This document shows, one piece after another, positions 7,516 to 31,076 of a DNA stretch of 32,581 nt. The stretch comes from Bacteroidaceae bacterium (lineage in GTDB: Bacteria > Bacteroidota > Bacteroidia > Bacteroidales > Bacteroidaceae): assembly GCA_017428785.1 (NCBI GenBank), contig JAFRQD010000004.1, forward strand, positions 1-32,581. Direction: 5' to 3'. Position 1 is the first letter of the stretch; every line of letters begins with the position of its first letter. The notes beneath the pieces are model-generated. The model searched no databases, had not been told where the DNA came from, and saw only the letters and a program-made list of their open reading frames with translations. The position numbers and the translations under genes are program-made.

Positions 7516-7603
7516 AACATCGCGTGCGGTAATTGCCAACGCCGCGTGTGGCGTTGGCAAACATAGCCTGCGGCGTTGGCAATCCCCGCACGCGGCGTTT
7601 GCA
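7516..7603. repeat. Four-unit 22-bp G+C-rich intergenic array
   Basis: Four units start at 7516, 7538, 7560 and 7582, each exactly 22 bp; a decayed partial unit follows at 7604. Dyad cores are CGCGTGCGG, CCGCGTGTGG, AGCCTGCGG and CCGCACGCGG. The first and last units are in opposite senses (GT versus AC centre), so the array as a whole is an imperfect inverted repeat. Confidence 0.85.
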
Positions 7604-7699
7604 AATCCCGCGTTTTCCGAGCCCCTTTCCCCCTTTTTGAAGAGTGTGCAAAAATAGCAAAAAGAAAGCAAAAGGGGCAGGATCGATGACAGATTGTCT

Positions 7700-8104
7700 T
7701 TAGGGCTTGGATGCGTTCTGGCTGGAATTGAAGCGACGATAGAACCACGCTGAGCCGAAGCAAATCAGCAGCGATGCACAAACCGCCAGCACGACTCCTG
7801 TCGGCATGGCTGCCTGAGTGGTTTGGCAGGCTTGGTTCGCGGGAACCTCCACTGTTGCTACTGTGCTAACCTGGGTGGCCGACAAATCCTTTGAATGCTT
7901 CTGAGCCTTCTTCTCGGCCTTCTTCTTTGCCCGCTCGGCCTTCTTTTCGGCCTTTCTCTTCGCCTTCGCCTCTTTCTTCGTAAGCTTTTCTACTTGCTTT
8001 TCTTCCTTTGCCTCCTCTTTCGCTTTCTCAATCTGATCTTTGCGAATCTGGCGCTGTTCCCACTCTCTTGGGGTAGCGATAACGTCTAATAAATAAAGCG
8101 TCAT
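7700..8104 (-). CDS. Small lysine/alanine/glutamate-rich coiled-coil membrane protein, 134 aa
   Basis: I do not recognise the family. Residues 12-75 are a highly charged helix rich in Lys, Glu and Ala (repeats of KAEKKAERAKKKAEKKAQK type), likely a long coiled coil. A Thr/Val/Ala-rich linker follows, then one hydrophobic segment at about 101-119 (GVVLAVCASLLICFGSAWF) and a short basic tail with YRR. This predicts a tail-anchored protein with its charged part in the cytoplasm. The start is an ATG at 8104 with a good Shine-Dalgarno (AAAGGAGAG) on the minus strand. It lies 31 bases downstream of the MFS gene on the same strand, so the two are probably co-transcribed. Function is unknown. Confidence 0.7.
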   Translation of the reverse strand: MTLYLLDVIATPREWEQRQIRKDQIEKAKEEAKEEKQVEKLTKKEAKAKRKAEKKAERAKKKAEKKAQKHSKDLSATQVSTVATVEVPANQACQTTQAAMPTGVVLAVCASLLICFGSAWFYRRFNSSQNASKP

Positions 8105-8135
8105 AATCTCTCCTTTCTTTTTTAATTGTTGAATG

Positions 8136-9458
8136 TCAGATGATTAGTTGTATCAGGATGCCAACAAGAAAACTTGTGGCATTACATATCAAACTGTATA
8201 TTGCTGCTTTTCGCCACCCGCGGGTGAAGGCGAAGTACCACAACGCCTCTACCAAAAGCACCAGCAGCTCGCCTCCGACAATGCGCTCGGTGCTGGTGCC
8301 AAATGTCAGCAGGAAGTAGTTCAGCGGCACATTCGTCAGTATGTTGATTGCGACGGCCCCCGTCAGCAAGCCTTTCCTTCGCTCGCCCATCAGCAACAGC
8401 ATCCCTATCTCTACGGAGATGGTGAGCAGCAAGGCCGACAGCATGAAGTAGTGCATGGAGGACAGCTGCTGATGGTGCGCCAGCATGTAGCCGGGAATCA
8501 GGACGGCAGCCAGCAGGCCGAAGGAAAGGCCCTCGCGCTTAGGAAACAGCCTGTTGGACAGGTGAAGCGTCATAGGCATCGTGAAGTTGATGGCCATCAC
8601 GCTCAGGATGACAGGCAGCAGGGATGTGCTGTCTTCCCCTCTCCACATCATGCATATAGCTGTGACACACACACAGGCGACGATGGCATGCCCTATTCCC
8701 AACCAGCGTGCAATCCATCCGCCTCCGGCTTTCCCTATCATGGCAGCTATCGCCAAAGGCAGCAGCACATCAGATGTCCTCTCCAGTCCCGTTGGAACCA
8801 CTTCGCCCACAAACGACCTCAACATGACAAAGACAAGGATGGCAAGGAGGAAGCCTCCCCCGACCCCTCCAAAGGAGGGGGGAATTGCCCCGCCTAGCTG
8901 TTGACTTCGTAGGGAGATTGCTTCCCCCCTCCTTTGGAGGGCTCGGGGGAGACTTGTGGCTGCCAACGCTATGCACAGCAGCATGCCTGCCAGCAGCCAC
9001 CATGAGGCATAGAGCGCACCAAAGGCCAAGCCCATGGCACCGGTCGAAACGAAGATGCCCAAGGCCCTCATGTCGTTGCCGGTCAGGACGGCTGTTAACT
9101 TGCCTCCCCATACATGGAACATAGAGTTTCCCATGCCCAGCAGGATGGCAACGGCATATGTCGAGAATGGCGTGAATCCCCACCAAAGCGTGTCTGCCAT
9201 CAGCATGAAGACCGCTGCCGTCAGCAAGCATGAGGAAAGGAGCAATGCCTTATGGGGATGGCTGAGACGGTCTGTCCACCAGCCCGTCAGCGGCTGTGTC
9301 ATGAATGCCAATATATTATAAGTAAGGAATAGGGGCAGGAGGTCGGTCGCCGGAGTAGCTGCCGCCATCAAATATAGGCAGCACAAACAAAGTCCGTCCA
9401 CAAGGAAATGGAGAACAGTAGCAATGCCAACCGGCATCCATTTAGCATAACCAGTCAT
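8136..9458 (-). CDS. MFS transporter carrying an in-frame palindromic insertion, 440 aa
   Basis: This is an inner-membrane transporter of the major facilitator superfamily with about 12 or more hydrophobic segments. The N-terminal HFLVDGLCLCCLYL recalls fosmidomycin-resistance-like efflux proteins, but the substrate is unknown. Residues 1-168 carry the first six helices. Residues 169-203 (ending AIPPSFGGVGGGF) are encoded by a 105-bp palindromic repeat element and fall in the central cytoplasmic loop. The second half resumes at LLAILVFVMLRSF. The final 75 residues (after the GERRKG loop) add about three more helices that look like an extra domain. The ATG at 9458 has AGGAG four bases upstream and a TATCTTTG -7 box at 9489-9482. 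Confidence 0.82.
   Translation of the reverse strand: MTGYAKWMPVGIATVLHFLVDGLCLCCLYLMAAATPATDLLPLFLTYNILAFMTQPLTGWWTDRLSHPHKALLLSSCLLTAAVFMLMADTLWWGFTPFSTYAVAILLGMGNSMFHVWGGKLTAVLTGNDMRALGIFVSTGAMGLAFGALYASWWLLAGMLLCIALAATSLPRALQRRGEAISLRSQQLGGAIPPSFGGVGGGFLLAILVFVMLRSFVGEVVPTGLERTSDVLLPLAIAAMIGKAGGGWIARWLGIGHAIVACVCVTAICMMWRGEDSTSLLPVILSVMAINFTMPMTLHLSNRLFPKREGLSFGLLAAVLIPGYMLAHHQQLSSMHYFMLSALLLTISVEIGMLLLMGERRKGLLTGAVAINILTNVPLNYFLLTFGTSTERIVGGELLVLLVEALWYFAFTRGWRKAAIYSLICNATSFLVGILIQLII
8851..8955. mobile_element. 105-bp MITE-like palindromic element inside the MFS gene
   Basis: Two 34-bp arms at 8851-8884 and 8922-8955 are inverted copies with two mismatches, around a 37-base centre. The arms contain CCTCCCCCGACCCCTCC and its complement. 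The element is 105 bp, a multiple of three, and keeps the host reading frame open. It encodes the low-complexity IPPSFGGVGGG stretch. Palindromes of this design are scattered in many Bacteroidetes genomes. No transposase is present. Confidence 0.8.
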
Positions 9459-9481
9459 TATCTCCTGCTTATTACTCTTTG

Positions 9482-9489
9482 CAAAGATA
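9482..9489 (-). promoter_or_regulatory. -7 box of the MFS operon
   Basis: TATCTTTG on the minus strand lies 23 bases before the ATG at 9458. The -33 region is weak. Confidence 0.5.
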
Positions 9490-9606
9490 AGGAAAAAAGA
9501 TTAATGAATGTGTGAGAAAGGGACACAGAATAAAGAAAATTAGCAAAAACTATACATAAAGAGGTTTTTTTAACTCTTAAACCTTTAAACTTTTAAACTT
9601 TTATTG

Positions 9607-9614
9607 TACCTTTG
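9607..9614 (+). promoter_or_regulatory. -7 box of the tRNA-Arg gene
   Basis: TACCTTTG lies 41 bases before the tRNA. The upstream area is a run of AACTTTTA words, so the -33 element is poorly defined (TTTAAAC). Confidence 0.5.
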
Positions 9615-9655
9615 CACGCGAATTTAATTGGACCTGCAAGATTAGCCAGGCGATT

Positions 9656-9727
9656 GCTCCTGTAGTTCAACGGATAGAATAGAAGTTTCCTAAACTTTAG
9701 ATAGGGGTTCGATTCCCCTCGGGAGTA
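9656..9727 (+). tRNA. tRNA-Arg (anticodon CCU)
   Basis: The cloverleaf can be drawn by hand. The acceptor GCTCCTG pairs with CGGGAGT, including wobble pairs. The D-arm is GTTC/GAAT with the arginine-typical AACGGATA loop. The anticodon stem GAAGT/ACTTT encloses loop TTCCTAA with CCT at 9689-9691. The T-arm is AGGGG-TTCGATT-CCCCT. The 3' CCA is not encoded. It reads AGG codons. No integrase or attachment duplication is visible beside it. Confidence 0.88.
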
Positions 9728-9738
9728 CTACTTCGAAA

Positions 9739-9838
9739 GTGAAGAGTGAAAAATGAAGAATTTCCTTCCGCCGTGCTTTTTGCGTCAAAGGACTTCTGTC
9801 CGGTAGGCAATTCTTAATTCTTAACTCTTAACTCTTAA
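9739..9838. repeat. Inverted pair of heptamer word blocks between tRNA-Arg and korA
   Basis: The left block is GTGAAGA, GTGAAAA, ATGAAGA (9739-9759). The right block is TTCTTAA, TTCTTAA, CTCTTAA, CTCTTAA (9811-9838). The two are imperfect reverse complements around a spacer containing TTTTTGCGTC and a small GGACTTCTGTCC dyad. A TAATTTTG sits at 9836-9843, only eight bases before the korA ATG. Confidence 0.6.
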
Positions 9839-9851
9839 TTTTGAAATAACG

Positions 9852-11684: not shown

Positions 11685-11696
11685 AAAATTATAATA

Positions 11697-11726
11697 AACA
11701 ACGGATTGAACTGATTTGACGGATTA
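11697..11726. repeat. Left inverted repeat flanking the GxxExxY gene
   Basis: Three nonamer words (CAACGGATT, GAACTGATT, TGACGGATT) form a 30-bp block. It matches the reverse complement of 12104-12133 at about 25 of 30 positions. It ends six bases before the GxxExxY ATG and starts 12 bases after the korA stop. Confidence 0.8.
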
Positions 11727-11731
11727 AGGCA

Positions 11732-12103: not shown

Positions 12104-12134
12104 AAATCCGTTTAATCCGTTAAATCCGTTGTTG
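12104..12134. repeat. Right inverted repeat flanking the GxxExxY gene
   Basis: Three nonamer words (AAATCCGTT, TAATCCGTT, AAATCCGTT) directly follow the stop codon of the GxxExxY gene, then GTTG. It is the inverted partner of 11697-11726. Confidence 0.8.
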
Positions 12135-12155
12135 TAAAATATAAAAATAAGAAAT

Positions 12156-13151: not shown

Positions 13152-13183
13152 AGGAGAAAAAATAAACTCTAACATTCTAATAT

Positions 13184-16100
13184 ATGAAAAGCAACTTCCT
13201 ATCAGCAAAGGCCATAGGGCTTTGTGCTCTGTGTTTCCTCTGCGTTCTCTGCGTCTCTGCGCAGCAGACCGCTTTCGAGTTCTCTACTGCCCATCGTGGT
13301 CCCGTCATAGGGCCGCTCCATTATGGTATCTTCTACGAGGAAATCAACCATGCGGGGGATGGCGGCATCTATGCCGAGCTCATTCGCAATGGCTCGATGG
13401 AGGAGAGCGGTTCAAACCCCGAATATTGGCAGACCATCGGCAATGCCAGCCTCAGCATTTCTTCCCAGAACCTCATCAATGGTGCCCAGAAGAATGCTAT
13501 GCAACTCAACCTGGCTCAAGCAGGCGACGGCACCAGAAACGTCGGTTACTGGGGCATTAACATTGTGGAGGGGCAAACTTACAAGGCCAGTTTCTGGATT
13601 CGTACGGCCAGCAATTGGGAAAGCGATGTGACGCTGACCCTTGAGAGCGAAGCGGGCGACGACCTCGGACATTCCGTGGTGCCTGTCAGCGATGCTGGTT
13701 CTTGGAAGAAATACACCACAGAGATTACCGCTACGGGCAGCTACCAGCAAGGTTGTTTTGCCATCAGGGGAGGCCAGGCAGGGACGATTTATCTGGATTG
13801 CGTCAGCCTGTTCCCGCCAACGTTCAAGGGGCGCGAGAACGGAATGCGCATCGATTTGGCCGAGAAGCTGGCTGCCTTGCATCCTCGCTTCATGCGTTTC
13901 CCGGGCGGCTGCTATATTGAAGGCGGCAATCGCTATCAGTGGCGCCATACCGTCGGTCCCGTCGAGGAGCGTCTGGGCATCTATAACAGCCAGTGGGGCT
14001 ATCCCGTGACGAACGGCATGGGCTTCCACGAGTTCCTTCAGCTTTCCGAGGATTTGGGAGCCGAGCCGATGTTCGTGGTCAACATGGGCATGGGTCACGG
14101 ATGGTATGAGAACTATCAGCATATTGAGGGTTATGTGCAGGAAGCGCTCGATGCTTTGGAATATGCCAATGGCGATGCCTCCACGTTCTGGGGGGCGAAG
14201 CGCATTGCGGCAGGGCATCCCGAGCCGTTCAACATGCGCCTCATAGAGATAGGGAACGAGAATTATAACTATAATTTCAACAATAACAGCGACCAGAGCG
14301 ACCACTACCCCGAGCGCTACCGCCAGTTCTACGACGCCATCAAGGCGCGTTGGCCGGAAACCATCTGCATCGGCAACGTGGAGAGCTGGGGCACGGACAA
14401 TCCCTCCTGGCGCAACGCTCATCCCGTGGATGTCGTGGACGAGCATTATTATAAAACGCCCGATTGGTTTGCATCCAATTACCGCAAATACGACAATGCC
14501 AGCCGCAGCAGCCACAAGATATATAATGGCGAATATGCCGTCACCAGCGACTGCGGCACCAACGGAACCCTGAAAGCTGCCCTGGGCGAAGCCATCTACA
14601 TGGCGGGCATGGAACGCAATTCCGACGTTTGCATCATGGCTTCGTATGCGCCTATCTTCAAGAACGAGAACGATTCGCAATGGAATCCCGACATGCTCCA
14701 CTACAATGCCTATACCAGCTTCGGCACGCCCTCCTATTGGGCTCAGCAGATGATGGCAGAGACCGTCGGGAAGCAGAACATCACATGGACCGAGACGGGC
14801 AACATGCTCGGCATGGAGAGTGCCCGATTGGGCGTCGGCTCCTGGAGCACCGAGGCCACCTATTCCAATATCCGGGTGACCGATGCCGACAATAATGTCA
14901 TCTTCGAGCAGACGGAGGCCATCACCACGCCAAGGTCGTTGCAGGGCCATTACCGCCTCTTCGACGTCGGCACCGACAACTGCACCATCGAGATGGATGC
15001 CGTGAGGAACAGCGGCGACGAGGGTTTCCTCATCACCTTTGCCTATGTCGATGCCGGCAACTACGCCTGGTGGAACATTGGGGGATGGGGGAATACGAAG
15101 CATGCCATAGAGCAGGCCGTGGACGGGAAGAAATCCACTCTGACCGATGCCAGCGGCAGCATCCAGACGGGGAAGACCTATCGCATCAAGATAGTGCGCA
15201 GCGGCCTTACCGCACGGTGCTACCTCGACGGAACCCTTGTCCATACCGTCACCCTTGCCGAGAAGACCGGGCAGCGGCTCTACCTCTGCGCCTCCCTCAA
15301 CGAGGCCGAGGACATGGCCATCGTCAAGGTCGTCAACTACGGCGACGCTGCCGTTCCCGCCAAATTCTCCTTCGCCGACGCCGTCATCAGCGGCAATGCC
15401 GAGGCGCGCATCATGAGCCATGCCGACAACTACGCCGAGAACTCCCTGGCCGAGCCCGAGAAGGTGGTGCCCAGAAACGAGACGCTGACCATCGACGGCG
15501 AAGCGCTGGAGTTCGAGGTGCCGGCCTATTCGCTCTCCGTCATCCGGATACCCGTTTCCGAGGTCAGCACAGAGGAGAAGCCACAGTCTGCCGAGCCCCC
15601 ATCCGCCGTCGTCAGCTACGATTTCGAGGACGAGGCACAAGGGCTGGAGTTCGCCGACGGCAACCATGCCTTCTATACCGACGAAGAGGGCAATGTCGAT
15701 TTGGGCAACGAGGCCGCTTTGGCCATCGGCAAGGTGCTCAACGGCGGAGCATACAGCGTCAGCCTCAACCTCATGTTCGCCGACAGCGGCCACCTCGATA
15801 AATACTGCTGGGCTTGGAACGTCAACAACGGCACGGGCTCCTACGCTGGCCTCATCAATCAGGCCAACAATGTCAACTGGTACTTCGAGAGGAAAGCCAA
15901 CTCGGGTTCAGTAGCCGTCAACTCGCGCTCCGGCCTCAGCTGGCGGACATGGCACAATGTCACCGTCACCGCCGATGCCACCACCACGAGCATCTACATC
16001 GACGGCGTCCTCCGCAAGACCGAGCCCTCGAACACCAACGCCCTCACCCTCAACGCCGCCACCGTGGCATGGATAGGACGCAGCCCCTACACCGCCGACG

Positions 16101-16930
16101 CCCTGATGAGCAAGACCTTCTTCGACGATTTCGCCGTCTATGATGGCGTCCTCACTGCCGAACAAGCCCTCGCCCTCTACGAAGCCGCAGCCGCCAAGAG
16201 CACCGAGTGCCCCGCCCTCGTCCCCGAGCCCGAAACGGAGCCCAACGCCGACGCCATCAGGCTCATCGGCGACGGAGAAGAGGTGGACATCACATCCCTG
16301 CTGAAGAACGCCGACTTCGCCTCGGGCGGCAATTACTGGGAGGGCACGACCTTCACCGCAGCGCCCGGCACCGTGGCAGAGCAATACAACAAGGTGTTCG
16401 ACACCTATCAGGTGCTCCTCGACATGCCCGCAGGCATCTACCGCCTCAGTTGGCAGGGCTTCTACCGGAACGGCAACATAGCCAACGCCCACCTGCGCCA
16501 CATGGCAGGGCAGGAGGACACCGCAGAGGTCTATGCGAACGAAGAGGCCACCAGCCTGCTCTCCATCTACGACGAGTCGGTGCCCTATACCTTCGAGCCC
16601 TACACCTATCCCGACAACGTGACCACCGCCAACCAAGCCTTCCTCGACGGATACTACCGGCAGCAGATGGAGTTCACGCTCGATGAGACCACCGACCTCC
16701 GCATCGGCATGCGCCACTTCGCCCCGACCGTCTATGACTGGGCTTGTGTGGACAATTTCAGCCTCACCTACCTGAAGGACAACAGCACCGGCATCCGTGA
16801 AGCGGTAAGCGAGAAGCAACCGACTTCGGCTGTTTACGACCTCAGCGGCCGACGCGTGGCAAGCGCCACGACCACAGGACTGCCAAAGGGTGTCTATGTT
16901 GTTAAGGGTAAGAAGGTTATAGTGAAATAG
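13184..16930 (+). CDS. Multidomain GH51 alpha-L-arabinofuranosidase with lectin-like modules, 1248 aa
   Basis: This large exported enzyme releases arabinofuranose from arabinan or arabinoxylan. A signal peptide spans residues 1-26 (ending SAQ). A carbohydrate-binding CBM4/9-like module follows to about 210. The GH51 catalytic region with FMRFPGGCYIEGGNRYQW runs from about 225 to 540. The acid/base is Glu359 in EIGNEN and the nucleophile is Glu450 in YNGEY. A concanavalin-like insertion (about 541-715) precedes the arabinofuranosidase C-terminal beta domain (to about 792). A LamG-like module (about 808-1005) is next, then a domain of unknown class (about 1025-1195). The last 45 residues (VYDLSGRRV...GKKVIVK) resemble the C-terminal sorting signal of Bacteroidetes type IX-like secretion. 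The 3' half is more G+C-rich than the 5' half. It starts 32 bases after korB but is functionally unrelated. Confidence 0.93.
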   Translation: MKSNFLSAKAIGLCALCFLCVLCVSAQQTAFEFSTAHRGPVIGPLHYGIFYEEINHAGDGGIYAELIRNGSMEESGSNPEYWQTIGNASLSISSQNLINGAQKNAMQLNLAQAGDGTRNVGYWGINIVEGQTYKASFWIRTASNWESDVTLTLESEAGDDLGHSVVPVSDAGSWKKYTTEITATGSYQQGCFAIRGGQAGTIYLDCVSLFPPTFKGRENGMRIDLAEKLAALHPRFMRFPGGCYIEGGNRYQWRHTVGPVEERLGIYNSQWGYPVTNGMGFHEFLQLSEDLGAEPMFVVNMGMGHGWYENYQHIEGYVQEALDALEYANGDASTFWGAKRIAAGHPEPFNMRLIEIGNENYNYNFNNNSDQSDHYPERYRQFYDAIKARWPETICIGNVESWGTDNPSWRNAHPVDVVDEHYYKTPDWFASNYRKYDNASRSSHKIYNGEYAVTSDCGTNGTLKAALGEAIYMAGMERNSDVCIMASYAPIFKNENDSQWNPDMLHYNAYTSFGTPSYWAQQMMAETVGKQNITWTETGNMLGMESARLGVGSWSTEATYSNIRVTDADNNVIFEQTEAITTPRSLQGHYRLFDVGTDNCTIEMDAVRNSGDEGFLITFAYVDAGNYAWWNIGGWGNTKHAIEQAVDGKKSTLTDASGSIQTGKTYRIKIVRSGLTARCYLDGTLVHTVTLAEKTGQRLYLCASLNEAEDMAIVKVVNYGDAAVPAKFSFADAVISGNAEARIMSHADNYAENSLAEPEKVVPRNETLTIDGEALEFEVPAYSLSVIRIPVSEVSTEEKPQSAEPPSAVVSYDFEDEAQGLEFADGNHAFYTDEEGNVDLGNEAALAIGKVLNGGAYSVSLNLMFADSGHLDKYCWAWNVNNGTGSYAGLINQANNVNWYFERKANSGSVAVNSRSGLSWRTWHNVTVTADATTTSIYIDGVLRKTEPSNTNALTLNAATVAWIGRSPYTADALMSKTFFDDFAVYDGVLTAEQALALYEAAAAKSTECPALVPEPETEPNADAIRLIGDGEEVDITSLLKNADFASGGNYWEGTTFTAAPGTVAEQYNKVFDTYQVLLDMPAGIYRLSWQGFYRNGNIANAHLRHMAGQEDTAEVYANEEATSLLSIYDESVPYTFEPYTYPDNVTTANQAFLDGYYRQQMEFTLDETTDLRIGMRHFAPTVYDWACVDNFSLTYLKDNSTGIREAVSEKQPTSAVYDLSGRRVASATTTGLPKGVYVVKGKKVIVK

Positions 16931-16954
16931 AAAACCCCTTAGGGAGGAGTAGAA

Positions 16955-17042
16955 AACGCCGCATGCGGCGATGACCAACGCCGCACGCGGAAATGACCAA
17001 CGCCGCACGCGGGGATTGCCATCGCCGCACGCGGCGTTTTCT
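16955..17042. repeat. Four-unit 22-bp G+C-rich intergenic array
   Basis: Units of exactly 22 bp start at 16955, 16977, 16999 and 17021. Cores are CCGCATGCGG then three CCGCACGCGG. The first unit (from GAAAACGCCGC) and the last unit (to GCGGCGTTTTC) are reverse complements over about 21 bases with one mismatch, so the array can close as one large hairpin with a trailing T-run. It starts 24 bases after the GH51 stop and is preceded by CCCCTTAGGGAGGAG. Confidence 0.88.
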
Positions 17043-22827: not shown

Positions 22828-23919
22828 TCAAAACTGCGGGCGGTTGACAATCCAGCAGGGATGGCTGGTGGGGTTGCCTTTGTGGTCGACGAAGGTAAGC
22901 TTGCCGTCGATGTCCTTCAGCTCCATCAGTATCATGGGACGGGGGCGGTAGTCGCCGCGACGGGGGATGAGGCCTTCGCAATGCGCGTGCATGACCATGA
23001 ACATGCGGCCTGCCCGGTCCGTGATGATTTCGCCGTTGTGCCCGGCGCCGTTCAGGATGGCGTCGGCGCTTTCGGATGAGAGCACGGGCTCGGGCTCGCT
23101 CCAGCCTGAGAAGAGATGCTTTGAGGTGCTGAGGCAAAGGGTGTACTCATAGTTGTTGAAGTGGTTCTTGGAGCAGAAGAAGTAGTACAGCCCTTTATAT
23201 TTATAGATGTAGCCGCCTTCGTAGGCCGTCGTGATGTAGTGCGGTTCGCTGCCCTTTGCGTAGCTCAGGCCGTCCTTCGCGAGCTCGCGGATATAGTTGC
23301 CCTTGCTGTTCACATCGCCATAGACGAGGTATTGCTTGCCGTCGTCGTCGAGGAAATATTGCCCGTCCTGCGGTGTGGGGTGCTCAGGCGTGCCGACGTT
23401 CAAGGTGTTGGCATAGCGGAAGGGGCTGTCGATGTCGTCGGCCACGAGGACCACCTGCCGGTCGTTCTCCATCGAGACAAAGAGGGTGAGATACACCACG
23501 AGCTTGCCCTGGATGAGCGCAGGCGAGGGCGCCCAGAAGTTGATGTTCTGCTTGCCGGCGCCGGTCTTCATGGGGTCGTGTTTGCCGTCGCCAAACGGGT
23601 CGTGCGCGTTCGGCCCGGGGAACATGTCGCGATAGAAGGTCCAGTTGCAGAGGTCGCGGCTGCGGTAAATCTTGATGGGGAAGCCCGTCTTGAAGCAGTA
23701 GAACCACTCGCCAATCTGCACGACGGACGGGTCGGGGCAGTCGAAGTCGGTCACGGGATTCATGGCGACGGTCTTGTCGGGCATGTCTTTTCTGAGTTCG
23801 AACAAGGCCTTTTCGGCGATTTGGGGCTCGGTCTGTGCTTTTGCGCCCAGGCTGCTTATGCAAAGGAGCAGCAGGAAAAAGGAGATGCGGTTCATGTGTT
23901 TTTTTCCGTTAAACTTCAT
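22828..23919 (-). CDS. Secreted GH43 family glycosidase, 363 aa
   Basis: This is an exported five-bladed beta-propeller glycoside hydrolase that cleaves arabinose, xylose or galactose links. A signal peptide ends at about AKAQ29. The catalytic base is Asp63 in FDCPDPSVV, the pKa-modulating residue is probably Asp185 in QDGQYFLDDDG, and the acid is Glu234 in TAYEGGYIYK. The chosen ATG at 23919 has a strong Shine-Dalgarno GGAGG seven bases upstream; a second ATG at 23895 is possible. The open frame runs further upstream without a start of its own and overlaps the divergent DUF3298 gene, so that extension is spurious. The receptor gene follows, which may be co-transcribed. Confidence 0.92.
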   Translation of the reverse strand: MKFNGKKHMNRISFFLLLLCISSLGAKAQTEPQIAEKALFELRKDMPDKTVAMNPVTDFDCPDPSVVQIGEWFYCFKTGFPIKIYRSRDLCNWTFYRDMFPGPNAHDPFGDGKHDPMKTGAGKQNINFWAPSPALIQGKLVVYLTLFVSMENDRQVVLVADDIDSPFRYANTLNVGTPEHPTPQDGQYFLDDDGKQYLVYGDVNSKGNYIRELAKDGLSYAKGSEPHYITTAYEGGYIYKYKGLYYFFCSKNHFNNYEYTLCLSTSKHLFSGWSEPEPVLSSESADAILNGAGHNGEIITDRAGRMFMVMHAHCEGLIPRRGDYRPRPMILMELKDIDGKLTFVDHKGNPTSHPCWIVNRPQF

Positions 23920-23973
23920 TTTATAACCTCCGGCACATCGGTTGTTGTCCTTCAACTTATCATCTTTTGCATG

Positions 23974-23981
23974 CAAATATA
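23974..23981 (-). promoter_or_regulatory. -7 box of the GH43 gene
   Basis: TATATTTG on the minus strand lies 54 bases before the ATG at 23919, preceded by a T-run. The -33 element is weak. Confidence 0.5.
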
Positions 23982-24000
23982 CGAAAAAAAGAAGTATTCC

Positions 24001-24031
24001 TTGCTGTTCTTGGAAAAATATGCTAATTTTG
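24001..24031 (+). promoter_or_regulatory. Promoter of the DUF3298 lipoprotein gene
   Basis: TTG at 24001-24003 and TAATTTTG at 24024-24031 are 20 bases apart, in the divergent region opposite the GH43 promoter. The ATG is 35 bases downstream. Confidence 0.5.
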
Positions 24032-24066
24032 CCTGCAAATAAACTAACAAAACAATCAATCGACAC

Positions 24067-24834
24067 ATGAAAAAGTATCTTTTTATCCTTTCTATGGCTG
24101 CTTTGGCTTTTGCTTGCACGGACGAGCAAGGCAGTACAAATGGCGAACAGAACAAGCTCGAATGGGGAAATGCCTCGCTGTGCATCGAGGAACCTATTGC
24201 TCCGAAAGAAACGCTCTGCTACCACATCGAATTCAAGCTTGACACGCTTGCCGGTGACGGCCAACTGGCAAAGAGCCTCTCCCAAGTGCTTCGCGACAGC
24301 GTGCTCTGTGCCGGAGAATATGCCACCATTCAAGAGGCGATGGCAGCCCTTGCCGACAGCATGAAGACGGAATGGAAGGCAGAACTGGCCGAGATGTACG
24401 ACCCTGAGTCGGATTTCAGGGAAACCCTGCAGTACTACTACACCGTCGAGGGCAGTCCCGTGGAAACGGTGGGCGACAGCATCCTGTCCTATCAAACGAA
24501 CATCGACTGCTATCTGGGCGGCGCCCACGGCAGCTATGTGGTCTTCTACTACAACTTCGACAGGAAGACGGGCAAGCTGCTGAACATCAGCGACGTCGTG
24601 CCTGCCGACAAGGAGATGCTGGTGATGAAGGCAATGGAGGAACAGCTCTGCAAGGACTGGGAGGCTAAGGATCTGGCCGACCTGCAGGAGAAGACAGGCA
24701 TCACGATGCTGGGCGACCTCTACCTGACCAACAACTTCCTCCTCAAGGGCGACAGCATCACTTTCCTCTTCAATCAATACGAGATTGCACCCTACGCGGC
24801 AGGGCTCATCAGCGTGACATTACAAAGGCCTTAG
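24067..24834 (+). CDS. DUF3298 (RsiV-like) lipoprotein, 255 aa
   Basis: This is a predicted lipoprotein: the signal peptide ends in the lipobox LAFAC with Cys17. The C-terminal half carries the DUF3298 hallmark GGAHGSYVVFYYNFDRKTG and then DVVPADKE. The family includes the extracytoplasmic part of the anti-sigma factor RsiV, but here there is no cytoplasmic anti-sigma segment and no sigma factor gene nearby. So a regulatory role is not supported. It is convergent with the C11 protease gene, separated by a 22-bp array 12 bases after its stop. Its binding partner or function is unknown. Confidence 0.85.
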   Translation: MKKYLFILSMAALAFACTDEQGSTNGEQNKLEWGNASLCIEEPIAPKETLCYHIEFKLDTLAGDGQLAKSLSQVLRDSVLCAGEYATIQEAMAALADSMKTEWKAELAEMYDPESDFRETLQYYYTVEGSPVETVGDSILSYQTNIDCYLGGAHGSYVVFYYNFDRKTGKLLNISDVVPADKEMLVMKAMEEQLCKDWEAKDLADLQEKTGITMLGDLYLTNNFLLKGDSITFLFNQYEIAPYAAGLISVTLQRP

Positions 24835-24846
24835 AGGGGGCTTACA

Positions 24847-24934
24847 AACGCCGCGTGCGGGGATTGCCAACGCCGCACGCGGAAATGCCCATCGCCGCAC
24901 GCGGGGATTGCCATCGCCGCACGCGGGGATTTTA
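24847..24934. repeat. Four-unit 22-bp array between convergent genes
   Basis: Units of exactly 22 bp start at 24847, 24869, 24891 and 24913 with cores CCGCGTGCGG, then CCGCACGCGG three times. It begins 12 bases after the DUF3298 stop and ends 16 bases before the stop of the opposite gene, so it fills nearly the whole convergent space. It is preceded by GGCCTTAGAGGGGGC. This position suits a bidirectional 3' processing or termination element. Confidence 0.88.
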
Positions 24935-24950: not shown

Positions 24951-26129
24951 TTACCAACCCGTTCTCTGCCAGCCTGTTACGGCATACCACGAAGTCTTCT
25001 GGAAGTCCTCGTTCCAACCATAATTGTTGTATTTCTCCATCGGAACAAACATAGAGACGCCGCCATAACATTCCGGGTCCCGGACGGTGGGGTCGCTGCA
25101 GAAGGAGGCGAACCACGTGTTGGATGAGGAAAGCTTGCGGAGCGGCACTGCTTTGTCGAACAGCTCCATCCATGCGGTATAGTCGTCCTCAGAAAGCAGT
25201 CGGCACATGGTGGTCCGCATGTCGAAGTAATAGGTGTACTTGTTCAGGAAAGAGCAGTAGGCTTGGAAGCCATCGGCGGAAGGCTCTGCATGCTCCATGT
25301 AGAAGGGCGTGAGGAGGCGGCCCGTGGCTTCGGCGAGAGCGTCGAGCTGCGAGCAGTCGATGCAGGAAAGCAGCACTCCGGGATAGTAATAGTAGTTGTA
25401 GGTGCCCGGGTAGCCGCTGTCGTAGCCCTCGACAATGCCTTTCGCATCGCCTTTGCAGAGCGCCGAGATAACCTTATCGTAGGGAGCGCCAGGGCCGGGA
25501 ATCTCTGCCGGAGAGCCCACCATGTAGCTTGTCACGTTGCGCAGTTCGTAGGCCACCTCGATGCACTGCATGAAGCAGGCGTCGAAGAAGATGTAGTCGA
25601 ACTTGGGCAATCGGGACAGCACGTCGCGCAAGACGGGAATCTCCATCTCGCTCATCGTGGCCGGCTTGCTGTGCGTCTCGTCCTTGCCGAAAGTGTTGCG
25701 ACGGGGCGTCCAGCCTGTGGCGTGCGACCAGAAGGTGATGCCGTAGTGGCGTGCAGGGAAATAGTGCTCGATGCCCTGCAATGTCTTTAGCATCGTCTCG
25801 GCATCGGTGCTGCAGAGCTCTTCATTGCACTGCTTCCAGAGCTGCAAGCCCTTCTTCGCCGAAAGCTCGTAGATGGCAGGCGTGTGCGCTTTGTCGTCCA
25901 GGTAAATGATGAAGTTCACATCCTCCGGGATGAGATTCTTGCCCTTCACCATTTCTATGGTGTCCTGCCGCACCTGTGTGTAAAGCGTGTTGTCGCCAAG
26001 CAGATAGACGATGACGGTGCGCTCGGCCTCAGCTCGGGGCAGCCTCTCCGGCGGCACGACCGAATCGCGGCATCCCGTCAGGAGACACATATTATATAAT
26101 ATAATAATGTATAGGCAGAAGCGTTTCAT
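24951..26129 (-). CDS. Clostripain-family (C11) cysteine peptidase lipoprotein, 392 aa
   Basis: This is a predicted surface or periplasmic lipoprotein with lipobox LLTGC (Cys20). The C11 catalytic dyad is His136 in FWSHATGW and Cys185 in FFDACFMQ, matching the clostripain/gingipain-like caspase fold. It probably cleaves after basic residues by analogy, but specificity is not shown. The length is normal for Bacteroidetes clostripain-related proteins. The ATG at 26129 is needed for the signal peptide. A TATCTTTG -7 box ends only five bases before it, so the mRNA may be leaderless. Confidence 0.9.
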   Translation of the reverse strand: MKRFCLYIIILYNMCLLTGCRDSVVPPERLPRAEAERTVIVYLLGDNTLYTQVRQDTIEMVKGKNLIPEDVNFIIYLDDKAHTPAIYELSAKKGLQLWKQCNEELCSTDAETMLKTLQGIEHYFPARHYGITFWSHATGWTPRRNTFGKDETHSKPATMSEMEIPVLRDVLSRLPKFDYIFFDACFMQCIEVAYELRNVTSYMVGSPAEIPGPGAPYDKVISALCKGDAKGIVEGYDSGYPGTYNYYYYPGVLLSCIDCSQLDALAEATGRLLTPFYMEHAEPSADGFQAYCSFLNKYTYYFDMRTTMCRLLSEDDYTAWMELFDKAVPLRKLSSSNTWFASFCSDPTVRDPECYGGVSMFVPMEKYNNYGWNEDFQKTSWYAVTGWQRTGW

Positions 26130-26134
26130 GGGTG

Positions 26135-26142: not shown

Positions 26143-26146
26143 CAAC

Positions 26147-26242: not shown

Positions 26243-26261
26243 CTTTCCGTTATTATAGCGT

Positions 26262-27419: not shown

Positions 27420-27468
27420 TTTGGCATTTTTTTCGAGCCAAACTGATACAACTAATTGTTTTTTTTCG

Positions 27469-27476
27469 TACTTTTG
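27469..27476 (+). promoter_or_regulatory. -7 box immediately before the yceD start
   Basis: TACTTTTG preceded by a T-run (27459-27466) ends seven bases before the ATG at 27484. Normal spacing would put the transcript start at or one to three bases before the ATG. Confidence 0.5.
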
Positions 27477-27483
27477 CAGCCCG

Positions 27484-27966
27484 ATGGGAAAACTGGACGG
27501 TTATAAAGTTGATTTGAAAGGCATGCAAAGCGATACTGTGTCGTACTGCTGGCAAGCTGACAATGACTTCTTCTCCGCCGTTCAGGGGCCTGAAATAAAG
27601 TACGGTCTGCTCGATGTAGCATTACGGGTGAAGCGGACATCTGACGCCTATAATCTGGAGTTCCAGTTGAAGGGCGAGGTGGAAGTGACGTGCGACCGCT
27701 GCCTTGAACCCATGTCCCAACCCATCGACGCTCAGTGCACATTGCGTGTCATAATGGGCGACGACTATGCCGACGACGGCGATGTGGTGACCATTCCTGC
27801 AAGGGAAGGCATCATCAACGTGGCTTGGAACATCTATGAGTTCGCAGCTCTGCAGATACCTCTGCGCCATGTCCATCCCGACTGCCCCTCCCTTTCTTCG
27901 CAAGAAGAGAAGGAAAGCGACCCAAGATGGGAAGCGCTGAGGGAACTAGTAAACACTAAATCGTAA
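27484..27966 (+). CDS. yceD: YceD family (DUF177) protein, 160 aa
   Basis: DUF177/YceD proteins are needed for normal 23S rRNA levels in bacteria and plants and are nearly always found next to rpmF. The protein starts MGKLDGYKVDLKGM, matching the Bacteroidetes form, and has the CDRCLEP motif with Cys70 and Cys73. The C-terminus is acidic. The ATG at 27484 is chosen for homology; the frame is open further upstream but without a plausible start. The last codons (NTKS) fall in the TAAATCG word repeat. rpmF starts 23 bases after the stop. Confidence 0.88.
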   Translation: MGKLDGYKVDLKGMQSDTVSYCWQADNDFFSAVQGPEIKYGLLDVALRVKRTSDAYNLEFQLKGEVEVTCDRCLEPMSQPIDAQCTLRVIMGDDYADDGDVVTIPAREGIINVAWNIYEFAALQIPLRHVHPDCPSLSSQEEKESDPRWEALRELVNTKS

Positions 27967-27985
27967 ATAATTAAATAGTAAATCG
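27957..27985. repeat. Heptamer word repeat TAAATCG in the rpmF leader
   Basis: TAAATCG, TAAATAAT, TAAATAG, TAAATCG run in tandem from inside the last codons of yceD to four bases before the rpmF ATG. Confidence 0.6.
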
Positions 27986-27989
27986 AATT

Positions 27990-28169
27990 ATGGCACATCC
28001 AAAAAGAAGACAGTCCAAGACCAGGACTCTCAAGAGAAGAACTCACGACAAGGCAGTAGCTCCCGCATTGGCAGTATGTCCTAACTGCGGCGAGTTCCAC
28101 ATCTATCACACCGTATGCCCTGCTTGCGGTTACTATCGCGGCAAGGTTGCCATCGAGAAAGAGGCTTAA
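27990..28169 (+). CDS. rpmF: 50S ribosomal protein L32, 59 aa
   Basis: L32 is a small zinc-binding protein of the large ribosomal subunit. The translation begins MAHPKRRQSKTRTLKRR, the classic basic L32 N-terminus. The zinc ribbon is CPNC (Cys30, Cys33) with CPAC (Cys43, Cys46). All four cysteines are present, so it is the zinc-containing form. The length of 59 is normal. It lies between yceD and fabH, a conserved order. The 3' end contains GAGG, which serves as ribosome binding site for the fabH TTG start three bases past the stop. Confidence 0.97.
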   Translation: MAHPKRRQSKTRTLKRRTHDKAVAPALAVCPNCGEFHIYHTVCPACGYYRGKVAIEKEA

Positions 28170-28172
28170 AGA

Positions 28173-29252
28173 TTGGAACAGATAAATGCCGTCATAACTG
28201 GTGTGGGCGGATACGTGCCCGACTACATCCTCGACAACGAAGAGATGTCGAGAATTGTGGACACCAGCGATGAATGGATAATGGAGAGGATTGGCGTCAA
28301 GACACGCCACATCCTCAAGCCTGAGCAAGGCAGCGGTACTTCGTACATGATGACGAGGGCCGTTGCTCAGCTTTTGCGTAAGACTGGCGCAGACCCCGAC
28401 AGCATAGAGCTCGTCATCTGCGCCACCACGACCCCCGACTACCACTTCCCTTCTACGGCGTCGCTTGTCATTGGCAATTGCGGCCTGAACAACGCTTTCG
28501 GCTATGACATGGAGGCAGCTTGCGCAAGCTTCCTTTATGGAATGGAGGCAGGAGCGGCCTATATTCGTTCGGGGCGCTACAAGCGCATCATCATCTGTGG
28601 CGGCGACCACATGAGTTCCATGACCAACTATGAGGACCGCAATTCCTGTCCTATCTTCGGCGACGGCGCAGCCTGCGTCATGATGGAGGCCACGACGGAG
28701 GAGGTGGGGCTCATAGATGGCTATTACCGTGTGGACGGCAAGGGCTACCAGCCTCTTCACATGGCGGCAGGCGGTTCTGCCAAGATGCCGAGCCACGAAA
28801 CTGTTGACGCCCGCGAGCACTTTGTCTATCAGGAAGGCCGTGCTGTGTATAAGCATGCCGTGCTCGACATGACGAGTGCCGTCAAGACCATCACCAAGCG
28901 CAACAACCTGACGAAGGACAACATCGATTGGGTTGTGCCGCATCAGGCAAACATCAACATCGAGGTTTCCGTTGCACAGCGCATTGGCATCGAGAAAGAC
29001 CATATCATGATAAACATCGACCACATGGCCAACACCAGTGGCGGCACGCTTCCCCTTTGTCTTTGGGAGTACGAGCCGCAGCTCAAGAAGGGCGACAAGC
29101 TCGTCTTTACTGCGTTTGGTGCTGGCTTCACATGGGGCGCGAGCTACATGATATGGGGTTACGACGGGGCGAAGGAAGCAGCCAAAGAGCCTGCACAGTT
29201 CTATAAGGAAGGGCTCATGACTCGTGAAGAATGGAGAAAGTTAAGAAGTTAA
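28173..29252 (+). CDS. fabH: 3-oxoacyl-ACP synthase III (FabH), 359 aa, TTG start
   Basis: FabH condenses acetyl-CoA (or a branched acyl-CoA) with malonyl-ACP to start fatty acid synthesis in the cytoplasm. The catalytic triad is Cys117 in MEAACASF, His257 in VVPHQANI and Asn287 in ANTSGGTLP. The length is slightly above the usual 320-335. The start is TTG at 28173, three bases after rpmF, because MEQINAVITGVGGYVP matches the family N-terminus and no in-frame ATG is near. Tight coupling to rpmF is likely. Its last codons (KLRS and stop) are written in GTTAAGA heptamers shared with the era leader. Confidence 0.94.
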   Translation: MEQINAVITGVGGYVPDYILDNEEMSRIVDTSDEWIMERIGVKTRHILKPEQGSGTSYMMTRAVAQLLRKTGADPDSIELVICATTTPDYHFPSTASLVIGNCGLNNAFGYDMEAACASFLYGMEAGAAYIRSGRYKRIIICGGDHMSSMTNYEDRNSCPIFGDGAACVMMEATTEEVGLIDGYYRVDGKGYQPLHMAAGGSAKMPSHETVDAREHFVYQEGRAVYKHAVLDMTSAVKTITKRNNLTKDNIDWVVPHQANINIEVSVAQRIGIEKDHIMINIDHMANTSGGTLPLCLWEYEPQLKKGDKLVFTAFGAGFTWGASYMIWGYDGAKEAAKEPAQFYKEGLMTREEWRKLRS

Positions 29253-29343
29253 GAGTTAAGAGTTAAGAGGGATACTTTTGCGTCGAGCATATCAGGCGTC
29301 CAAAGTTATTGTTCTTAACTCTTAGCTCTTAACTTTTAACTTT
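29237..29343. repeat. Inverted heptamer blocks spanning the fabH end and era leader
   Basis: The left arm (29237-29268) of GTTAAGA heptamers and the right arm (29313-29343) are inverted copies with one gap and one mismatch over 31 bases. The 44-base centre holds TACTTTTG on the plus strand (29273-29280) and TAACTTTG on the minus strand (29308-29301). The left arm overlaps the last codons of fabH; the right arm ends 13 bases before the era ATG. Confidence 0.75.
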
Positions 29344-29356
29344 TAAAAGAAAGATT

Positions 29357-30238
29357 ATGTTTCGTTCCGGCTTTGTTAATATCGTAGGCAACCCGAATGT
29401 CGGGAAGTCAACGCTCATGAACCTTTTGGTTGGTGAGCGCATATCCATTGCTACCTTCAAGGCACAGACGACTCGCCATCGCATCATGGGCATCCTCAAC
29501 ACGCCCGAGATGCAGATTTGTTTCAGCGATACGCCTGGTGTGCTCAAACCCAACTACAAGCTGCAGGAGCAGATGCTCCAATTCAGCGAAAGCGCCTTGC
29601 AGGATGCCGACGTCTTGCTCTACGTCACCGATATGGTGGAGACGCCCGACAAGAACAGCGACTTCCTCGAGAAGGTAAAGAAGCAGAAAGCACCTATCCT
29701 CGTACTCATCAACAAGATAGACCTGAGCGACCAGAAGGCATTGACGGAGAAGGTAGAGCTTTGGCACGAGGCGTTGCCCGATGCGGAAATCATCCCCATC
29801 AGTGCCCTCCACAAGTTCAATGTAGATAATGTGCTGAAGCGCATACAGGAGCTTTTGCCCGAGTCGCCCGCTTACTTCGACAAAGACCAGTGGACCGACA
29901 AGCCTGCCCGCTTCTTCGTCACGGAAATCATACGCGAGAAGATACTCCTCTATTATGATAAGGAGATACCTTACAGCGTGGAGGTCGTGGTCGAGCAGTT
30001 CAAGGAGACAGACAAGAACATCCACATCAACGCCATCATCTATGTGGAGCGCGACAGCCAGAAGGGCATCATCATCGGCCACCAAGGCGTTGCCCTGAAG
30101 CGTGTCTCGACGGAGGCCCGCAAGAGCCTCGAGAAGTTCTTCGGCAAGAGCATCTATCTCGAGGTCTTTGTAAAGGTCGATAAGGACTGGCGGCAGAGCG
30201 ACCGCGCCATGAAGGCTTACGGATATAATCTGGAATAA
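29357..30238 (+). CDS. era: GTPase Era, 293 aa
   Basis: Era is an essential GTPase that binds 16S rRNA and helps 30S subunit assembly. The G1 motif GNPNVGKST is at residues 11-19, the G2 region AQTTRHRI follows, G3 DTPG near 59, G4 NKID near 118, and G5 ISALH near 149. The C-terminal KH RNA-binding domain occupies about 205-293 with GIIIGHQGVALKRV. The length is typical. It follows fabH with an AT-rich heptamer leader rather than direct coupling. A MITE-like palindrome begins right after the stop. Confidence 0.96.
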   Translation: MFRSGFVNIVGNPNVGKSTLMNLLVGERISIATFKAQTTRHRIMGILNTPEMQICFSDTPGVLKPNYKLQEQMLQFSESALQDADVLLYVTDMVETPDKNSDFLEKVKKQKAPILVLINKIDLSDQKALTEKVELWHEALPDAEIIPISALHKFNVDNVLKRIQELLPESPAYFDKDQWTDKPARFFVTEIIREKILLYYDKEIPYSVEVVVEQFKETDKNIHINAIIYVERDSQKGIIIGHQGVALKRVSTEARKSLEKFFGKSIYLEVFVKVDKDWRQSDRAMKAYGYNLE

Positions 30239-30239
30239 A

Positions 30240-30320
30240 GACCCCCTCTGACTCCCCCTCTATGGGGAGAAAGCCAGGCAAGAAAAGCCTCCCCGTAGAG
30301 AGGGAGGTTTGGAGAGGGTC
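30240..30320. mobile_element. 81-bp MITE-like palindrome between era and purN
   Basis: The left arm (30240-30269, GACCCCCTCTGACTCCCCCT...) and right arm (30289-30320) are imperfect inverted copies around a 19-base centre. It begins two bases after the era stop and abuts the heptamers before purN. Its C-rich top-strand design resembles the element inside the MFS gene. It may also act as a terminator for era. Confidence 0.65.
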
Positions 30321-30321
30321 A

Positions 30322-30357
30322 GGTAAATGGTAAACGGTAAATGATAAAATGGTAAAT
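30322..30357. repeat. Heptamer word repeat GGTAAAT containing the purN start
   Basis: GGTAAAT, GGTAAAC, GGTAAAT, GATAAAAT, GGTAAAT run in tandem. The ATG of purN (30349) lies inside the block, so the first codons ATG GTA AAT are made from the repeat. Confidence 0.65.
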
Positions 30358-30924
30358 GTAGCTATCTTTGTGTCCGGCGGCGGCACGAACTGCGAGAACC
30401 TGATACGCCATTTCGAGCATTCCGACATGGTGAAGTGTGCCTTGGTGGTCTGCAACAAGCCAGACGCCTATGCCTTGGTGCGGGCAGAACGGCTGGGAGT
30501 GCCGACGGCCATCATTACGAAGGCGCAACTTGGCAACCCCGACGAGGTGCTTCCTTTGCTGCAAAGCTATGGCATAGAGTTCATCGTGTTGGCAGGCTTC
30601 TTGCCGCTTGTTCCTTCTTATCTTATTGATGCCTTCCCCCGCAAAATCATCAATCTCCACCCTGCTCTGCTGCCCAAGTTCGGCGGAAAAGGCATGTGGG
30701 GGCATCACGTCCACGAAGCCGTGAAGGCAGCCGGCGAGACAGAGACAGGCATGACCGTCCACTATGTCACTCCCGTTTGCGACGGCGGTGAAATCATTGC
30801 CCAATATCGCGTGGCAATCTCTGCGGACGACACCGTGGATGACATTGCCGAGAAGGAGCACCGGCTTGAGATGGAATACTTCCCGCAGGTCGTGGAGCAA
30901 GTGCTTTGCTCAGGAACGGACTGA
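30349..30924 (+). CDS. purN: Phosphoribosylglycinamide formyltransferase (PurN), 191 aa
   Basis: PurN transfers a formyl group from 10-formyltetrahydrofolate to GAR, the third step of purine synthesis, in the cytoplasm. The N-terminal phosphate-binding motif is VSGGGTNCENL. The catalytic residues are Asn102 and His104 in INLHPALLPKFGG and Asp145 in TPVCDGGEII. The length of 191 is typical. There is no Shine-Dalgarno sequence; the start is inside heptamer repeats. A 22-bp array begins 64 bases after the stop. Confidence 0.95.
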   Translation: MVNVAIFVSGGGTNCENLIRHFEHSDMVKCALVVCNKPDAYALVRAERLGVPTAIITKAQLGNPDEVLPLLQSYGIEFIVLAGFLPLVPSYLIDAFPRKIINLHPALLPKFGGKGMWGHHVHEAVKAAGETETGMTVHYVTPVCDGGEIIAQYRVAISADDTVDDIAEKEHRLEMEYFPQVVEQVLCSGTD

Positions 30925-30988
30925 GCCTTTTGGTGGAGAAATCCGGTTCTGCAAGTTGCTGATTTTCAGATAGGCAGCAAGTGTTAAA

Positions 30989-31076
30989 AACGCCGCGTGC
31001 GGCGATGGCAAATTCCGCGTGCGGCGTTGCCCATTTCCGCGTGCGGCGTTGGTCATCGCCGCACGCGGCGTTTGCA
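30989..31076. repeat. Four-unit 22-bp G+C-rich intergenic array
   Basis: Units of exactly 22 bp start at 30989, 31011, 31033 and 31055. Cores are CCGCGTGCGG three times, then CCGCACGCGG. The first and last units are perfect reverse complements over AACGCCGCGTGCGGCGAT (18 bases), so the array closes as a large hairpin. CCCCCTCATGGAGGG follows it, equivalent in minus-strand reading to the CCCTTAG-GAGGGG motif that precedes the other arrays. Confidence 0.88.

Follow-up and report, generated by a model that had tools for sequence, protein, structure and literature searches.

Dispersed four-unit arrays with a 22-bp period at gene 3′ ends in a rumen Bacteroidaceae bacterium

Why should tandem repeats recur within a short piece of a bacterial chromosome at one and the same period? 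This question is raised by a 32,581-nucleotide stretch (the whole of which is hereafter termed the window) on contig JAFRQD010000004.1 of assembly GCA_017428785.1, a Bacteroidaceae bacterium of the rumen gut. Five arrays of 22-bp units had been located here in an initial annotation made from the sequence alone, and the 22-bp register is seen in all five. Tandem Repeats Finder (TRF) reports a period of 22 with 0% indels at each of them, covering only positions 7550-7611 in the case of the array at 7516. This array is the most diverged of the four G+C-rich arrays and fails the strict test for family A, the unit family described below. The remaining array, which is A+T-rich (1140-1315), does contain the eight units attributed to it, although these form two in-phase four-unit blocks of different sequence, the first ATCCACACGAGGATTTGACAAA-like and the second CTAAACACGTGTAGTTGGCAAA-like (family B).

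The arrays of the window are members of a set dispersed throughout the genome. This was surveyed in 40 stretches plus the window, together 824,581 bases or 28% of a 2.98-Mb genome whose assembly is 84% complete. Family A was sought as a pair of CCGCRYGCGG cores at a 22-bp step with at most three mismatches, the reversed pattern serving as the control. The 2.98-Mb genome contains 698 such sites, compared with three for the control. The sample accounts for 224 of them, comprising 61 complete strict arrays and three arrays that are cut by stretch ends and left out of the unit counts; extrapolated by proportion, the genome carries roughly 200 family-A arrays. A de novo period scan of the same 824,581 bases detected 93 period-22 arrays, while one Markov-simulated control yielded none of any period. 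Among the strict arrays, 53 of 61 have four units, five have five and three have three, and the step from unit to unit is 22 bp in 182 of 185 cases and 21 bp in the other three. A looser count of core-to-core distances gave 22 bp 154 times, 21 bp twice, 44 bp 15 times and 42 bp once, the longer distances indicating that a unit in the middle of an array has sometimes decayed. When 51 four-unit arrays are aligned over 88 bp they show 495 substitutions from the consensus (9.7 each) and a mean pairwise identity of 0.83. Together with the near-invariant steps, these many substitutions indicate that family-A units change by substitution, whereas their pitch hardly changes.

Each array is built as a cassette. 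AAACG is present at the left end of 52 of the 61 arrays and CGTTT at the right end of 48; both are present in 42, which thereby carry terminal inverted repeats such as characterize miniature inverted-repeat transposable elements (MITEs), and 40 of these 42 have four units. The linkers between units are specific to their position, the commonest being AAATG.. at linker 2 and GGATTGC.. or AATTTGCC.. at linker 3, which indicates that the whole four-unit block is copied, rather than single units. Cores are hardly ever found alone: 193 CCGCRYGCGG cores lie inside arrays and three outside, one of these three being cut by a stretch end and the other two ending an array of family C (see below). The core varies hardly at all, and the dinucleotide at its centre is asymmetric, AC/AG or GT/CT in most cases and AT in 3 of 204. 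A further dyad, diverged in sequence, often lies one period outside the array. Across 69 arrays the mean score of this outer dyad is 0.41 at 22 bp, 0.33 at 21 and 23 bp and 0.15-0.28 at 12-20 and 24-59 bp, and a CCY..RGG dyad one period outside four-unit A arrays is found in 47 of 104 flanks, compared with 3 of 104 in a control slot; 39 of 52 such arrays have it on at least one side and eight on both. As the outer dyad differs from an A unit, 'four' counts the conserved inner units only. Beyond one outer unit, no conserved leader or tail was seen in the flanks inspected of family-A arrays.

The position of these cassettes relative to genes is biased. Gene calls were made with a hexamer caller, which wrongly dropped the open reading frame (ORF) at 24067-24834, and gene contexts are approximate. 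Of 70 chains with at least three units, 43 lie in tandem, 18 in convergent and four in divergent gene gaps, with five at stretch edges. Divergent gaps are underused (4 of 65 chains, compared with 24% of intergenic length; p=0.0004) and convergent gaps overused (18 of 65, compared with 13%; p=0.001). In tandem gaps the chain is nearer the stop codon in 31 of 43 cases (p=0.005), at a median of 46 bp from the upstream stop and 181 bp from the downstream start, and only one of the 61 strict arrays lies mostly within a called gene. The polarity of the arrays is unrelated to gene direction (tandem contexts: 18 same, 21 opposite, four ambiguous). No neighbouring gene clearly recurs, the largest cluster having 14 of its 28 members beside arrays where about nine were expected. 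In the window, all four G+C-rich arrays do follow the end of a plus-strand gene, as had been noted, including the array at 24847, which follows the ORF at 24067-24834, and that at 7516, at a distance of 273 bp. With a peaked copy number, a constrained 22-bp step and a bias towards gene 3′ ends across the genome, the arrays are not drifted simple sequence, the outcome against which the initial annotation had set its proposal.

Family A shares its period with other unit families of the same genome. The sample contains 18 C/D cassettes (cores TCATGA or ACATGT, CAATTG linkers), of which 16 have three or four cores and 10 have inverted ends of their own, TTCRTTG..CAAYGAA or near variants; the C pattern matches the genome 30 times in forward and 19 times in reverse orientation, the control not at all. 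The outer dyad of these cassettes scores 0.51 at 22 bp and 0.10-0.38 elsewhere and is often near the A or B type. Outer dyads of another type in 22-bp phase indicate that families are combined in phase, and locus L094 is a mosaic in which A units are followed by other 22-bp units. A common frame, AC-N3-RC-NN-GY-N3-GT with a TTGCAA-like linker, fits 11 of 22 arrays of the source genome outside A and C/D, and 7 of 19 arrays of close relatives, at p<0.05; the frame resembles half-sites for a protein that binds DNA as a dimer.

The same period recurs in congeners. A segment scan over lags 12-60 found lag 22 to be the commonest period, in 112 of 147 arrays of the source genome and 26 of 60 arrays in 40 stretches from 21 congeners (707 kb), compared with one of five arrays in 242 kb from 16 genomes of other families. 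Pattern hits had determined the position of 13 of the 40 congener stretches; in the 27 taken blind, lag 22 accounts for 15 of 39 arrays and lag 21, the second commonest, for four. Of the 21 congeners, 14 have lag-22 arrays in the stretches sampled (10 of 20 when only the blind stretches are counted), and the units of these arrays are mostly unlike those of family A, e.g. AAAGACGCGCGTCTT.., CTAGGGGAGTTACGTAACTCCC and AACCAGTGACTGGTTAAGCCGA. That 22 bp is common to unrelated unit sequences within the genus goes beyond what the window alone could show. Within a further set of 40 congener arrays of periods 20-24, which includes orthologous-flank loci and is therefore not blind, 34 have period 22, and the consensus unit is dyadic at p<0.05 in 15 of these 34 (binomial p=2e-11). 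The number of units is sharp in the source genome and loose in congeners: four units are found in 57 of 112 lag-22 arrays of the former and 7 of 26 of the latter, where six have three, six have five and the range is 2-9. The relative RUG12391 is represented by 31 loci (two of them overlapping) that were chosen for containing a family-A match; of their 39 strict arrays 24 are four units long, and 15 of 110 steps measure 21 bp. Families with a 21-bp period are present in G013 (L062 15128-15235, L123 12408-12509) and with a 23-bp period in G017 (L127 14957-15071) and G042 (L254 1309-1466), which indicates that some species allow the pitch to move by a single base. The strict period and fixed copy number of four read from the window thus hold for the source genome, in the latter case for inner units, but neither is strict among its relatives.

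Despite the common period, the units themselves turn over rapidly between species. Family-A pair sites number 698 in the source genome, 472 in RUG12391 and 489 in bin.115, but three in RUG11599 and 0-8 in 24 congeners (reversed control 0-19), among which real A-like arrays are present in G005, G012 and G013. At orthologous sites of the source genome and RUG12391, A is retained in the L087, L088, L104, L108 and L109 pairs; elsewhere A in one species faces a B-type array in the other (L084/L047, L091/L053 and, for bin.115, L094/L048), or only one species has an array (L077, L106, L030). In the six closest congeners (89-97% amino-acid identity), a 22-bp array lies within 600 bp after mutS in four of six, gltX in three of six, recQ in three of six and trpS in two of five. 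These 12 of 23 loci carry an array family different from that of the source genome in 11 cases; after mutS, G005 has a D-type array as in the source genome, with other units in phase. D arrays are likewise common to the source genome, G005, G012 and G024 at L048 10327. Around this D array some 210-290 bp (L048 10206-10505) align at 81-87% with three congeners, perhaps as a longer conserved element or RNA.

We tentatively favour, with a little less than even confidence, the reading that the arrays are non-autonomous cassettes, dispersed in the genome and made of protein sites in helical phase, which behave like MITEs or REPINs (paired repetitive extragenic palindromic, REP, sequences) and are tolerated at gene 3′ ends. 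The core of such a cassette would consist of four polar units spaced every 22 bp, each a largely dyadic site of ~16 bp (AC-N3-RC-NN-GY-N3-GT) followed by a ~6-bp linker, and would be bounded by AAAACG...CGTTTT as inverted ends, beyond which a further, diverged dyad often stands at a distance of one period. The whole cassette, rather than single units, would be copied. The 22-bp pitch, equal to two helical turns, probably reflects a conserved sequence-specific protein that would touch successive units on one face of the helix; candidates are a transposase- or replicator-like protein, or a cooperative DNA-binding protein, required for spread or maintenance of the cassettes. Family A would have been amplified in the lineage of the source genome while congeners carry other families, and copies would survive in gene 3′ flanks and convergent gaps because they are least harmful there, where they could also serve as bidirectional terminators. 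A broader proposal, which we consider doubtful, is that the class is set by geometry and not by sequence: unit letters would be rewritten in each species while the pitch, the 3′-end placement and, loosely, the unit number persist, as a single conserved, rapidly evolving DNA-recognition protein copies cassettes and replaces older ones in phase.

A number of observations weigh against the cassette reading. No transposase or binding protein was identified, transposases with cassette-like ends not having been sought beyond the Y1 family, and the single Y1 transposase gene of the genome is unlinked to the arrays. The aligned cases offer no clean empty site or target duplication, the intergenic DNA being too diverged between species. 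Since only 15 of the 34 congener units are dyadic, the term 'dyadic site' is not general, and the 21-bp steps of RUG12391, along with the 21- and 23-bp congener families, make the pitch less than absolute. The shared frame fits none of 13 far-congener arrays and, having been drawn after the arrays of the source genome and its close relatives had been viewed, describes rather than proves. Finally, recurrence at the same 3′ end hints at a function of the site over mere dispersal: in close relatives, the 250 bp that follow the orthologous gene contain an array in 18 of 44 cases where the source genome has one and in 14 of 110 others (p=0.0003), omitting rows with <70% identity or whose alignment or flank ended early, and with sister species that are not independent. 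The excess shrinks as the no-array gaps are required to be longer, the comparison becoming 13 of 70 at ≥60 bp (p=0.016), 11 of 52 at ≥100 bp (p=0.046) and 10 of 34 at ≥150 bp (p=0.35), these matched counts further omitting 13 rows that lack a neighbour gene and likewise containing non-independent sister species. As it is not significant after matching for flank length, site-specific persistence is not claimed. Two-sided recurrence of a site on one 20-kb stretch gave 1 of 7 compared with 2 of 34 (p=0.44).

A different explanation, which we regard as possible although on balance unlikely, is that the arrays are nucleoprotein elements serving the host. They would be sites for a chromosomal protein that mark the ends of transcription units, as insulators or nucleoid anchors, and their units would drift through co-evolution and copying between loci. 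The placement at 3′ ends and convergent junctions, the near absence from called genes (1 of 61), the presence of 22-bp arrays at 12 of the 23 close-relative loci after mutS, gltX, recQ and trpS (11 of another family) and the switches from A to B between RUG12391 or bin.115 and the source genome all accord with such a role. It is less easily reconciled with the coexistence of several families in one genome, wholesale changes of units between close species and the near-zero count of family A in 24 congeners, and the sharing of sites is within expectation from long 3′ flanks. A role in RNA, whereby arrays, once transcribed, would fold into long hairpins or a tandem series of them and so bring about termination or protection of transcripts from either direction, appears quite unlikely. 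A hairpin followed by a T run (TTTT) is found in 58% of tandem (n=33) and 80% of convergent (n=20) family-A 3′ flanks, compared with 20-33% of no-array flanks and 0-3% of shuffles, so that the G+C-rich hairpin and T run of an intrinsic terminator characterize 58-80% of family-A flanks but not the rest. The consensus 88-mer folds at -61.5 kcal/mol, a strong hairpin, and a polarity unrelated to gene direction is expected of a two-way element. However, with the arrays masked the frequency of terminators is like that of other genes, and it is thus not clear that arrays replace terminators; RNA hairpins need no exact 22-nt pitch; 19 of the 34 congener units are not significantly dyadic; and at gathering thresholds Rfam matches nothing in the window except a tRNA at 9656-9727. 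Covariation was assessed in 50 polarity-normalised arrays, two ambiguous ones being dropped; earlier versions took arrays as oriented in the genome, and the negative sign of their result was partly due to mixed polarity. Normalised or not, the variable positions of family A show no overall compensatory change, and at seven of eight axes normalised complementarity does not exceed that of shuffles (mean z from -0.4 to -1.5). At the axis of unit 4 the mean z is +0.9 and two outer arm pairs covary at z about 5, which does favour pairing in the last unit. The dyad had been thought to be kept, by selection on symmetry, even where bases differ. It is kept in the A core and in 15 of 34 congener units but not at the variable positions of family A, where selection on symmetry finds no support apart from the two last-unit pairs. 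A near-invariant core with an asymmetric centre and no overall compensation is more in keeping with polar units recognised by their sequence than with selection for RNA pairing.

Movement by a REP-associated tyrosine transposase (RAYT), a Y1 enzyme, would account for intergenic, palindromic sequences in hundreds of copies, but is very improbable here. The only Y1 transposase of the source genome has a YIENQ motif and is IS200-like, its motif being like that of the IS200-type class 1 in a table of PMC6006769. The gene has other hairpins beside it and no 22-bp array within 1.5 kb, and there are hardly any singletons (3 of 196 cores outside arrays). The suggestion of REP-like elements, including bacterial interspersed mosaic elements (BIMEs), or protein-binding arrays comes close to the cassette reading, but without RAYT as the driver. 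The neighbourhood of a Y1 transposase gene at L056 1300-1960 carries paired GCCCTGAAAGGGC / CCCAGGGC..GCCCTGGG hairpins on its flanks, a different candidate dispersed repeat. The least probable explanation, and one strongly disfavoured, is that slippage during replication produced ordinary minisatellites, whose preference for 22 bp would be due to chance or to the age of the arrays. Tandem repeats are common in bacteria and congener arrays vary from two to nine units; against this, the same period ranks first in unrelated sequences and species, and family A combines a sharp peak at four, almost no lone units, conserved inverted ends and copies throughout the genome.

The closest described system is BrickBuilt of Porphyromonas gingivalis, a MITE minisatellite for which PMC4596501 gives 23-nt tandem units in 19 intergenic MITEs; that paper also mentions 22-, 23- and 41-nt direct repeats, those of 22 and 23 nt in strain W83. 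Both systems are intergenic, tandem and dispersed elements of Bacteroidales with inverted ends and stem-loop potential, and terminators are predicted beside 10 of the 19 BrickBuilt copies (PMC4596501). BrickBuilt differs in having 19 copies of one to about 23 units and a leader and tail with IS5-like (insertion sequence, IS) inverted repeats. The arrays described here have ~200 copies, mostly of four 22-nt units, no leader or tail was seen, the array itself bears the inverted ends and other unit families of equal period coexist with it; the two systems are set apart here by description and not by unit letters. With REP, BIME and REPIN sequences the arrays share short intergenic palindromic repeats, hundreds of copies and lineage-specific amplification, but they have almost no single units, a fixed pitch and unit number and no linked RAYT. 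Like MITEs they are short, non-autonomous, bounded by inverted ends and copied whole, although the interior is a phased array and neither a target duplication nor a parent IS was shown. Iteron arrays of plasmid origins consist of a few direct repeats of ~22 bp that present one helix face for cooperative binding of an initiator. In contrast, the arrays here are hundreds of chromosomal intergenic copies. An origin from plasmids or phages was considered and rejected, as no plasmid matched an A array or the B array and no phage record matched an A array; viral contigs gave no match to the family-A pair or C pattern. A three-core pattern matched one IMG/VR contig, where a family-A-like array (L293 4840-4930) directly follows a tRNA-like 3′ end; it may be host DNA that adjoins the attachment site of a prophage. 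CRISPR arrays are excluded, given a 10-bp core with 12-bp linkers from a recurring set instead of identical repeats with unique spacers.

Among the matches listed in the open-licence literature, which include papers on BrickBuilt, RAYT and P. gingivalis repeats, there is no description of 22-bp arrays in Prevotella-like genomes, BrickBuilt being the nearest. The new features are the 22-bp pitch across unrelated unit sequences and the fixed four-unit cassette of the amplified family. Cassettes of equal pitch but other letters in related species suggest a bacterial repeat of a kind that is undescribed and changes fast. Sequence is normally what identifies a family of bacterial repeats; here the common feature is a period of two helical turns. 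The cassette reading predicts a conserved protein that binds or processes 22-bp-phased arrays; if true, a DNA-binding protein and its hundreds of dispersed sites would be co-evolving fast in a bacterium, and the arrays would supply rumen Bacteroidales with gene 3′ ends specific to each lineage.

Table 1. Arrays, outer units and adjacent genes of the window
Positions	Strand	Feature	Remarks
1140..1227		Family-B block, four units, ATCCACACGAGGATTTGACAAA type	TRF; units in register
1228..1315		Family-B block, second type, four CTAAACACGTGTAGTTGGCAAA units	Same 22-bp phase as the 1140 block; TRF; units in register
5026..7242	+	Alpha-galactosidase-like gene	Ends 273 bp before the 7516 array
7516..7603		Family-A array, four 22-bp units, diverged	Cores TCGCGTGCGG, CCGCGTGTGG, TAGCCTGCGG, CCGCACGCGG; units in register
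13184..16930	+	Alpha-L-arabinofuranosidase-like gene	Ends 24 bp before the 16955 array
16933..16954	+	Outer unit AACCCCTTAGGGAGGAGTAGAA, imperfect dyad	22-bp phase, one period upstream of the 16955 array
16955..17042	+	Family-A array, four units	Canonical ends AAAACG...CGTTTT; units in register
24067..24834	+	DUF3298/PdaC-like gene	DUF3298 match; ends 12 bp before the 24847 array
24825..24846	+	Outer unit AAGGCCTTAGAGGGGGCTTACA	One period upstream of the 24847 array
24847..24934	+	Family-A array, four units	Orthologous site in RUG12391 (L108) also has an array
24951..26129	-	Clostripain-family (C11) peptidase gene	Converges on the 24847 array
30349..30924	+	Formyltransferase-domain (PurN-like) gene	Ends 64 bp before the 30989 array
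30989..31076	-	Family-A array, four units	Minus polarity
31077..31098	-	Outer unit ACCCCCTCATGGAGGGTCAACC, dyadic	One period downstream of the 30989 array

Two further repeat loci were encountered outside the window. At L048 12626-12695 a B-type 22-bp array lies inside a called ORF, and G005, G008, G012 and G024 also have 22-bp arrays there. At L045 6059-8635, 2.5 kb of period-66/44 repeats in which no gene was called may represent a repeat protein or a giant 22-bp array. Within the window, two ORFs on opposite strands overlap and each has a Pfam match, GH43 in the C-terminal part of 22828-24777 (-) and DUF3298 in 24067-24834 (+); the GH43 gene probably starts further in. Tandem coding repeats of 69 bp are present in two genes, one at each end of the window (146-1015, minus strand; 31255-32502, plus strand). 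The product of the latter is a BspA-type leucine-rich repeat protein (LRR_5, E=1e-102), with which the product of the former clusters by blastp.

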